Positions 24 through 30,005 of a stretch of 35,913 nt of DNA are shown piece after piece (position 1 is the stretch's first letter; every line of letters starts with the position of its first letter). The stretch lies in the NCBI GenBank assembly GCA_017623115.1, contig JAGAPT010000011.1, forward strand, positions 1-35,913, read 5' to 3'. This DNA comes from Alistipes sp. (GTDB lineage Bacteria > Bacteroidota > Bacteroidia > Bacteroidales > Rikenellaceae). The notes beneath the pieces were generated by a model. The model had not been told where the DNA came from. It ran no database searches and was given only the letters and a program-made list of their open reading frames with translations. Position numbers and translations under genes: made by a program.

Positions 24-96
24 GATCTCGTAGCTCAGCAGGTAGAGCACAACACTTTTAATGTTGGGGTCCTGGGTTCGAGCCCCAGCGGGATCA
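24..96 (+). tRNA. tRNA-Lys (anticodon TTT)
   Basis: A full cloverleaf can be folded. The acceptor stem pairs 24-30 (GATCTCG) with 89-95 (CGGGATC), with one T-G wobble. The D-arm starts at 33 (GCTC). The anticodon stem pairs 50-54 (CAACA) with 62-66 (TGTTG) around a 7-base loop with anticodon TTT at 57-59. The T-arm pairs 72-76 (CTGGG) with 84-88 (CCCAG) around TTCGAGC. The discriminator base is A96. The next bases are CCT, so the CCA tail is not encoded. Only 23 bases lie upstream, so its promoter and any tRNA partner are outside the view. Confidence 0.97.
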
Positions 97-106
97 CCTT
101 CAAGCG

Positions 107-139
107 ACAACCGAAGCGGATGCTTCGGTTGTTTGTTTT
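107..139 (+). terminator. Terminator of tRNA-Lys
   Basis: A perfect 11-bp stem pairs 107-117 (ACAACCGAAGC) with 122-132 around a GGAT loop, followed by a T-rich tract (TTGTTTT). It starts 10 bases after the tRNA, as expected of an intrinsic terminator. Confidence 0.85.
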
Positions 140-230
140 GTCGTGGTTATATCGTGCGCAAGCACCCATACCCACTACAAAACAAACACCGGCATTGCCG
201 ATTTGTCGCTTTCGCTGGGCATTATAATAA

Positions 231-296
231 GGGTTGCGAGGATAATTATGCTCTATTTCCAGCAGTATCCTCGCGAGTGCTTCGCACTTCGAGCCC
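231..296 (+). repeat. Interrupted T-arm element, copy A
   Basis: Read on the plus strand this folds as a three-way junction. The outer stem is 231-235 (GGGTT) with 292-296 (AGCCC). Inside are a 9-bp stem, 236-244 (GCGAGGATA) with 266-274, and a 5-bp hairpin, 276-280 (AGTGC) with 284-288. The outer bases GGGTT...TCGAGCCC are those of a tRNA T-arm, as in tRNA-Lys at 74-85, with the hairpins where the loop should be. A related element lies on the minus strand at 29691-29777, also about 150 nt downstream of a tRNA. No gene was found around it. Function unknown; it could be a decayed tRNA copy, a small mobile repeat or a structured RNA. Confidence 0.6.
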
Positions 297-705
297 ACGC
301 AGTGAAAGACGAGCGTAGCGAAGTCAATCACATCTCAGGCAATGTTTGCGCTCTATATGCCGAGGACTCCAAGGGAAAGGCGCAACAAAGCGAAGCGACT
401 GCGCAATCCCGCCACACCAATCACTGAAAACTATTTTATTATAAAAGTTCATAGGTTACGCTTCCCGATTTTTTTGTCTTATCGTTGCTCAATAGAATAG
501 ATACAACCATTTGAAGGTTGCCATAAAAAATGGCACAGTGGCGGACAGTTATCGAACTGTCAATGGGCGTACTCGTGTCAAGCGAAATTTGCAAGATATT
601 TACTCGAAATAGGTAGTAGTATGACAAATCCTACCGTGTAGAGATGTATTATCAGATATAAAAATAGTTGCATAAAAACTTTCGATATAAATTCCGTTTA
701 TAAAA
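297..705. other. Gene-free stretch with nested inverted repeats, then AT-rich DNA
   Basis: No credible gene is seen. The left part holds AGCGAAG motifs at 317 and 389 and a nested structure in which 373-376 (GGGA) pairs with 407-410 (TCCC) around 380-384 (GCGCA) with 400-404 (TGCGC). From about 425 the DNA becomes AT-rich and looks like plain upstream sequence of the rhodanese gene. A short open frame antisense to tRNA-Lys contains GLEPRTP, typical of spurious frames called across T-arms. Confidence 0.5.
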
Positions 706-29601: not shown

Positions 29602-29701
29602 CTCGTTCAAATTGATTTGACAACGAGTAGACACAAAAAAAGACGACTGATTTTCATCAGTCGTCTGTGCTCCAAAACTGGCGGTGCGTAGGGGACTCGA
29701 A
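29602..29701 (-). repeat. 100-bp duplicate of tRNA-Asp 3' end and terminator
   Basis: This segment equals 29852-29951 at 99 of 100 positions (the difference is A at 29631 against G at 29881). Read on the minus strand it contains the last 23 bases of tRNA-Asp including CCA, a terminator hairpin (29641-29666) and a second palindrome (29602-29627, CTCGTT...AACGAG). The tRNA fragment is fused at its 5' side to the interrupted T-arm element. The 29444-29601 stretch to its left holds only the malQ promoter and nothing else recognised. Confidence 0.9.
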
Positions 29702-29777
29702 GTGCTTCAGCACTCGCGAGCATTCCTCTTTAGCGCAGCCGCAGGCAAGCAATCAACTCCTCTATGCTCGCAACCCC
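29691..29777 (-). repeat. Interrupted T-arm element, copy B
   Basis: On the minus strand, AGGGGTT (to 29772) and TCGAGTCCCCT are the two halves of the tRNA-Asp T-arm, split in the loop by 71 nt. The insert contains an 8-bp stem, GCGAGCAT (29771-29764) with ATGCTCGC (29723-29716), and a hairpin AGTGC-TGAA-GCACT (29714-29701). It then continues into the duplicated tRNA 3' end. The layout and several motifs are shared with 231-296. In the stem, the sixth pair is C-G here and G-C there. Confidence 0.65.
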
Positions 29778-29851
29778 TCCGTCGTGAGTAGGGCCCTATG
29801 CTTCGCTGGAGCACACGATACGCAACGCGTGTCGTTCGTTTTTTGTGTCAG

Positions 29852-29916
29852 CTCGTTCAAATTGATTTGACAACGAGTAGGCACAAAAAAAGACGACTGA
29901 TTTTCATCAGTCGTCT
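29852..29916 (-). terminator. Terminator of tRNA-Asp
   Basis: On the minus strand a 10-bp stem, 29916-29907 with 29900-29891 (AGACGACTGA on the plus strand), is followed by a T-run of seven or more. A second palindrome at 29852-29877 follows. The whole unit is duplicated at 29602-29666. Confidence 0.85.
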
Positions 29917-29928
29917 GTGCTCCAAAAC

Positions 29929-30005
29929 TGGCGGTGCGTAGGGGACTCGAACCCCTGACCCCGTGCGTGACAGGCACGTATTCTAACCAGCTGAACTAAC
30001 GCACC
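29929..30005 (-). tRNA. tRNA-Asp (anticodon GTC), CCA encoded
   Basis: On the minus strand the acceptor stem pairs GGTGCGT with ACGCACC, the discriminator is G (29932) and CCA is encoded at 29931-29929. The anticodon loop CTGTCAC gives GTC and is closed by CGTGC/GCACG. The T-arm is AGGGG-TTCGAGT-CCCCT. All are as expected for tRNA-Asp. Confidence 0.97.

Follow-up and report, generated by a model that had tools for sequence, protein, structure and literature searches.

REP/BIME sequences and the repeats derived from IS200/IS605 are short multi-copy hairpins without a recognized gene. Integron cassette arrays that lack an integrase are termed CALIN, and the attC sites of integron cassettes carry boxes with the consensus RYYYAAC (R'') and GTTRRRY (R'). 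To our knowledge, recombination of folded DNA is known just from integrons and a few filamentous phages. For attC, it is the fold more than the sequence that is conserved (PMC4792948). In IMEX phages such as CTX-phi, folding of a single strand creates a recombination site of about 150 nt, which is served by a host Xer recombinase (PMC5357621). The class II integrase of mycobacteriophage Ms6 recombines in the T-loop of a tRNA gene, and its core spans the tRNA 3' end (PMC1762012). Here we describe small units behind tRNA genes that resemble each of these systems in some respects.

The window, which is the whole stretch of 35,913 nt that was analyzed, contains two copies (A and B) of a module that we call E. 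Each belongs to a unit behind a tRNA gene, with the following features:

24..98, + strand: tRNA-Lys (TTT), the proposed target gene (ARAGORN, Rfam), with T-loop TTCGAG at about 77-82
99..216, + strand: hairpin cluster of the Lys unit, with P1, the terminator hairpin H1 with T-run, the long H2, and H3 (from reading the sequence)
about 102-109 with 204-211, + strand: P1 of the Lys unit (from reading the sequence)
130-150/168-188, + strand: inverted repeat in the Lys-unit cluster (computed; the matching layout folds in other units)
231..296, + strand: copy A, the split T-arm module E of the Lys unit, with outer stem GGGTT/AGCCC, long stem, and short hairpin
297..420, + strand: two remnants of F-type modules where the Lys tail would be expected (by eye; they resemble tRNA-Arg ones in other genomes)
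29929..30005, - strand: tRNA-Asp (GTC), the proposed target gene (ARAGORN, Rfam)
29852..29951, - strand: Asp tail copy 1, from the T-loop through the end of the tRNA and the terminator into the 3' flank (direct repeat D1)
29790..29928, - strand: Asp-unit hairpin cluster, made up of the terminator H1, H2, and H3, together with a linker containing TACTCAC; it overlaps tail copy 1 (from reading the sequence)
29691..29777, - strand: copy B, the split T-arm module E of the Asp unit (covariance-model family; pair counts)
29602..29701, - strand: Asp tail copy 2, with an exact start at the T-loop TTCGAG (direct repeat D1)

The sequence-only reading had placed A at 231-296 (+) and B at 29777-29691 (-). 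Coordinates, strands, and sequences were verified, as were the blocks that A and B share and the exchange of G-C for C-G at the sixth pair of the long stem. Both copies lie downstream of real tRNAs on the same strand, and the distance from the tRNA end to the start of E is about 133 nt for A and 153 nt for B. A common fold had also been proposed, and for A it was recovered (-28 kcal/mol, z -3.12). For B, the lowest-energy free fold was a different one (z -0.64), and the proposed fold reached -19.4 kcal/mol against -31.0 kcal/mol for the best, about 11.6 worse with RNA parameters. The structure of B thus rests on comparison with other copies. While the A/B observation itself was confirmed, the second Asp tail copy had been overlooked: directly behind copy B, positions 29701-29602 repeat 29951-29852 over 100 nt with 99% identity. 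Behind copy A, the pieces in 297..420 are 82-92% identical to locus L159 over 44-62 nt and 93% identical to L082 over 28 nt.

An island extending from A to B was considered and rejected: on reading, the ORFs of the window look like ordinary chromosomal genes. Four of them were compared with Pfam and gave one weak match, under the cut-off. Separately, window bases 1-141 are exactly the last 141 bases of the L169 reverse strand (genome G000, contig C22). This identity resembles the overlap left where a k=141 assembly graph branches; reads at tRNA-Lys and its terminator may have had more than one continuation.

A first pattern search in 61 genomes yielded six E copies in four genomes, 133-191 nt past a tRNA. 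Covariance model 1 was built from six copies, and at an E-value of up to 0.01 it matched in 86 of 151 genus genomes, several of which had 4-8 matches. Of the 61 genus genomes with completeness of 90% or more and contamination of 5% or less, 35 had matches. A lack of further copies in related genomes, which the sequence-only reading had named as a sign against it, was thus not observed. Sixty further loci were chosen by score and by tandem matches, giving 65 sources in all, in which model 1 detected 83 copies (78 distinct) from 36 genomes. Clustering downstream of tRNA genes was also seen, since 78 of the 83 copies have a same-strand tRNA 59-585 nt upstream. The E-bearing tRNAs comprise 20 anticodon types, and of the copies within 260 nt of the tRNA, 55/63 lie at 130-200 nt. 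The five copies without a tRNA are either near contig ends (L049, L081, L085) or preceded by tRNA 3' material only (L071, L075).

Within the samples searched, the family appears limited to the genus. Covariance model 2, built from the 83 copies and used with strict filters and an E-value of up to 0.001, gave zero E matches in 343 genomes from elsewhere in the order, including three from the same family. In named records, the exact E pattern occurred in 18 stretches, all from Rikenellaceae or Alistipes sp. metagenome-assembled genomes; those of the titles that name a source name ruminants, and the named E carriers are all metagenome-assembled. The E family was absent from Rfam 15 when the window (at gathering scores) and five loci (at E-values of up to 1) were compared with it; the tRNAs matched, and beyond them there were four weak matches far under the thresholds of their families. 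Among the papers listed by searches of open-access literature, none had a title or abstract start that gives an account of such units. Several E matches begin within about 200 bases of contig starts (for example, G023:C2:13-77, G092:C7:41-106, G092:C12:34-99, G115:C6:89-182), so assemblies may break at E units.

Across the 83 copies, 96.0% of the paired cells pair (slid controls, at most 49.5%), and 205 cells in the stems carry two-sided changes compared with a shuffle mean of 57.5; these counts come from an alignment fitted to the structure, which biases pairing and covariation upward. None of 500 shuffles had as many two-sided changes, and none reached the observed covariation score. Twelve of 20 pairs change on both sides, a number reached in 3/500 shuffles, while A and B alone had supplied only one such pair. 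Further pair types were weak (29 compared with 27.2 in shuffles; 124/500 as high). The sequence-only reading had named decay without kept pairing as a sign against it. This was not the overall picture, although some second copies in series (L003, L047, L048) have decayed. The likeness of A and B is not due to chance, given the matches in 86/151 genomes, the position of 78/83 copies behind tRNAs, and the covariation that 0/500 shuffles reach.

The outer halves had been read as a T-arm cut in its loop, and comparison with the tRNAs bore this out. The outer stem of E corresponds to a T-stem. In 56 of 61 genome/tRNA pairs, its 5' triplet is the one found in the T-stem of its own tRNA; shuffles gave 43 on average, and 0/10000 were as high. 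For the ten tRNAs whose T-stem triplet is not GGG, seven match E and three do not. The outer stem follows the tRNA letters and contains 25% G-T wobble. Wobble is rare in the long stem (10/673 standard cells, 1.5%) and in the inner five pairs of the short hairpin (5/339); the corresponding value for predicted pairs in tRNAs, about 10%, is an unmatched comparison. This low wobble leans toward selection on DNA.

As far as sequence comparison goes, E terminates a unit of about 150-330 bp, whose first part duplicates the tRNA from the T-loop to the 3' end and is followed by a terminator and usually more hairpins. Units occur singly or in series behind a tRNA. Between tRNA and E, most units that were read have the P1 outer stem, the terminator hairpin H1, the long H2, whose loop often contains GCAAGC, and H3 (predicted by folding of four units). 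The Gln-ttg units L064, L080, and L093 have E at 59-63 nt and are without H2 and H3. On one strand, the hairpin cluster has an intrinsic terminator, and the opposite strand reads as a second hairpin with T-run. In 40/63 first units, there was a complete ORF of 40-78 aa on either strand; these are candidate frames only, since long inverted repeats favor them.

Behind E, the tRNA tail mostly recurs. Downstream tail copies outside other tRNA genes were found at 62 of 127 loci, a set enriched by choice, compared with 2 upstream and 4 inverted copies as controls; at least two tail copies were present at 18 loci (other tRNAs included). For the window genome, 30 loci out of 39 tRNA matches were inspected, and six had a tail copy; five of the 30 had less than 300 nt to inspect. 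The tails of one locus can be alike over 19-24 nt of tRNA and then diverge (L039, L040, L042, L044), or they can be alike over at least 100 nt (L038, window copy B).

A second module type, F, also has hairpins surrounded by a T-stem, and this stem fits the tRNA, as read in Pro, Ser, and Arg examples. When three F modules were folded, L146 and L155 gave the T-stem and L151 gave another fold. At tRNA-Gly (L165, L167), a single-hairpin module has its hairpin inside a T-stem fitting the tRNA. In the window genome, L175, which is without a tail copy, has an F-like remnant. Of 31 tRNA loci read in a sister-genus genome, one had a tail copy, with an F-like module; thus, F may predate E. At L142 (G005), the tRNA 3' half and an F unit are present and the 5' half is missing, as if an element were located in the anticodon loop.

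Several loci contain signs of insertion and exchange. At L144, an F unit lies directly on tRNA-His. At L077, an E unit is located between tRNA-His and a second unit, and the latter is identical to the L144 F unit at 201/248 positions; the match, which compares two species, starts at the T-loop GTTC, where L077 has the E unit. In L042, L044, and L077, E and F units with differing hairpin clusters stand in series, with E closest to the tRNA. Sequence of another tRNA type follows three E copies. One of these is the Lys E of the window, behind which stand F modules resembling those at tRNA-Arg elsewhere. The other two lie on one contig of G030, 4.4 kb from each other and in opposite orientation, and carry each other's tails: the Gln tail comes after the Lys E, and the Lys tail after the Gln E. 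Judging by sequence, an inversion between the two would produce this pattern, which could also stem from homologous recombination between near-identical E copies or from an error of assembly.

Successive units at the 18 multi-copy loci were at least 0.65 identical in 14 cases and at least 0.92 identical in nine, for which ordinary repeat recombination can suffice. As a side observation, L059 (G008) has tRNA-Asp and the whole E unit doubled with a spacing of 521 bp (tRNA, unit, tRNA, unit). The letters of the E stems and hairpins agreed most between different tRNAs of a single genome (0.871), less between genomes at one tRNA type (0.705), and least in the remaining comparisons (0.666); 0/2000 label permutations reached the within-genome difference. 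Without G030 (17 genomes), the values were 0.763 within and 0.645 between genomes (0/3000 permutations). Over the whole E interior without G030, within-genome and within-tRNA-type likeness were the same (0.704 each), and base composition may contribute to the within-genome likeness.

We therefore consider a cassette model. With slightly better than even confidence, we propose that E units are mobile cassettes without a recognized gene, which target the T-arm and use a folded split T-arm as attachment site in a manner like cassette recombination. A cassette would start in the T-loop and carry a copy of the tRNA 3' end, its own terminator, usually further hairpins, and E as its last part. Recombination would take place in the T-loop, between the intact T-arm of the tRNA as target and E. 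The tRNA would remain whole after insertion because the cassette carries the tRNA 3' end. E would be active when folded, as a single strand or an extruded cruciform; with its two hairpins pushed out, the halves of the T-stem would be joined, and E would mimic the T-arm of its own tRNA. The topology would be that of integron cassettes, with the T-arm in place of attI and E in place of attC. The cassettes would move, or would have moved, as units, the folded form of E would be the substrate, and a recombinase would probably act in trans. The sequence-only reading had suggested, among other options, a small mobile repeat family aimed at T-loops. That there is a family is well supported, and the T-loop-exact junction, the mixed arrays, and the foreign sequence behind E fit this suggestion; the mobility itself we infer. 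A more specific version, which we regard as tentative and rather doubtful, is an integron-like but integron-free system, in which any tRNA T-arm could serve as target for a folded split T-arm site, a housekeeping (XerC-/XerD-like) or new recombinase would act in trans, and segments between tRNA genes would be joined or inverted.

With integron cassettes, E units share the topology, in which the site is divided between cassette start and end, and the arrays of distinct cassettes at a fixed target (E plus F in L042, L044, and L077). Like attC, E is kept as a fold over sequence, with 96% of paired cells pairing and 12/20 pairs changed on both sides, and sites within one genome are alike, as in integrons. 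E units differ from integron cassettes in that they have no recognized gene and that their target is the T-arm of many tRNA genes, and E differs from attC in its three-way fold with two hairpins. The RYYYAAC/GTTRRRY layout was found in 0/83 E copies, and each box, anywhere and on either strand, occurred in 4 copies. No integron integrase was identified with the general PF00589 model, which gave two matches each in G128 and G147. Thus, E units were not classified as integron elements. REP/BIME and IS200/IS605-derived repeats are likewise short multi-copy hairpins without a recognized gene; unlike them, E units lie at tRNAs with tail copies, in a genus in which Y1 transposase was found in 0/37 genomes. 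The likeness to CTX-phi would be the folded single-strand site; Xer may be a possibility for E units. The IMEX target is dif, whereas that of E units is the tRNA T-loop, and no phage genes were seen. With Ms6, E units would share the T-loop crossover and the core over the tRNA 3' end; Ms6 bears genes and its own integrase, and a folded split T-arm is not described in the part of the source used (PMC1762012).

We searched for the machinery. No recombinase traveling with the cassettes was recognized by eye, without HMMs, in the 25 largest ORF clusters of 64 loci; these clusters were mostly genes common to the loci of one tRNA, plus frames over the tRNA or the unit. An HUH (Y1) transposase was rejected as the mover, as PF01797 was found in 19/24 genomes from elsewhere in the order and in 0/37 genus genomes. 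Also rejected was L106, the third small tyrosine recombinase that the window genome encodes; it was absent from the E-bearing genomes G030, G024, G027, G033, and G034, and it had matches at an E-value of 1e-30 or better in 25/61 genomes. In 14 E-bearing genomes, PF00589 matches numbered 3-17 in 12 genomes and two each in G128 (97% complete) and G147 (95%). By its score pattern, the pair in G128 and G147 is probably XerC-like and XerD-like. Among the PF00589 places listed, one (G083:C1:46843-47379) is within 10 kb of a listed E copy; the frame is 6.6 kb downstream of the tRNA-Ser (TGA) E copy G083:C1:53940-54007. Viral, phage, and plasmid sequences, searched by exact patterns or with one query, contained no autonomous relative of E, and no circle or excised form of a unit was seen.

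Four other explanations were weighed against the cassette model. Units might instead be a host-owned, vertically inherited tRNA terminator or insulator, with E as a structural part and the duplications caused by repeat recombination rather than transposition. The intrinsic terminator of the cluster and the hairpin with T-run on the other strand agree with this, as do the several flanking genes common to the loci of one tRNA, which suggest that many units were inherited in place. Identity of the hairpin cluster is also higher within a tRNA type across genomes than within a genome across tRNAs (0.585 compared with 0.53, and 0.595 compared with 0.522 without G030). Moreover, at L164 and L181, two tRNA loci of the window genome that lack a tail copy, A-run material stands behind a terminator, though they are predicted to fold without a P1-closed cluster. 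On the other hand, many tRNAs of the window genome without a tail copy have, by reading, a simple terminator or none within 230 nt, and a terminator or insulator gives no role to the tail copies, the T-loop-exact junction, the foreign sequence, or the imitation of the T-stem. We consider this explanation unlikely, yet it is the best of the four. Less probable still, units might be leftover attR ends of gene-deleted elements that integrate into tRNAs, or small elements mobilized in trans by them. The proposed crossover lies within the tRNA and the tRNA 3' end is duplicated, as in tRNA-integrated elements; integrase frames of about 400 aa are present in genus genomes, one PF00589 frame being the one 6.6 kb from E in G083. 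Leftover ends would hardly share a single layout and a uniform size of about 150-330 bp across 20 anticodon types, reading of the units brought no remnants of genes to light, and G128 and G147 hold just two PF00589 matches each. Moreover, we know of no ordinary attP sites that covary as folded T-arms. Use of the T-loop with a core over the tRNA 3' end by some phage integrases, as described for Ms6 (PMC1762012), speaks for leftover ends.

The remaining two explanations had both been raised by the sequence-only reading. A structured RNA made with the tRNA or from its trailer would account for the strong covariation and for the position of 78/83 copies downstream of a tRNA on the same strand. We give it little credence: G-U pairs are few (1.5% in the long stem compared with about 10% in tRNAs), E lies past the terminator of its own unit, and the units are repeated and joined at the level of DNA. 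Processing together with the tRNA is thus disfavored. Decayed tRNA copies or a chance likeness would explain why the tail parts are genuine tRNA fragments. This last explanation is contradicted by the covariation (96% of paired cells kept, 205 two-sided changes), the tRNA-matched outer stem, and the presence in 86/151 genomes, and we consider it hardly credible at all.

If the cassette model is true, E units would be a further form of folded-DNA recombination, gene-less and aimed at highly conserved genes. They would also be very small mobile elements that preserve tRNA genes by bringing the 3' end, and they would provide sites for inversions between tRNA genes. Owing to the covariation and the tRNA-matched outer stem, the idea of a folded site is testable with simple plasmids.

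Some further sequence features were noted. In genus genomes, a TCAC(TTAA)-like motif is located about 12 nt upstream of various E modules, and TTATTTTCA is present in the long-stem loop of many E modules. At L057, tRNA-Thr (CGT) is associated with a 162-bp repeat that contains a tail copy, with GGGGGATTTATCCCCC directly before an intact T-arm copy; this repeat perhaps represents a further module class.
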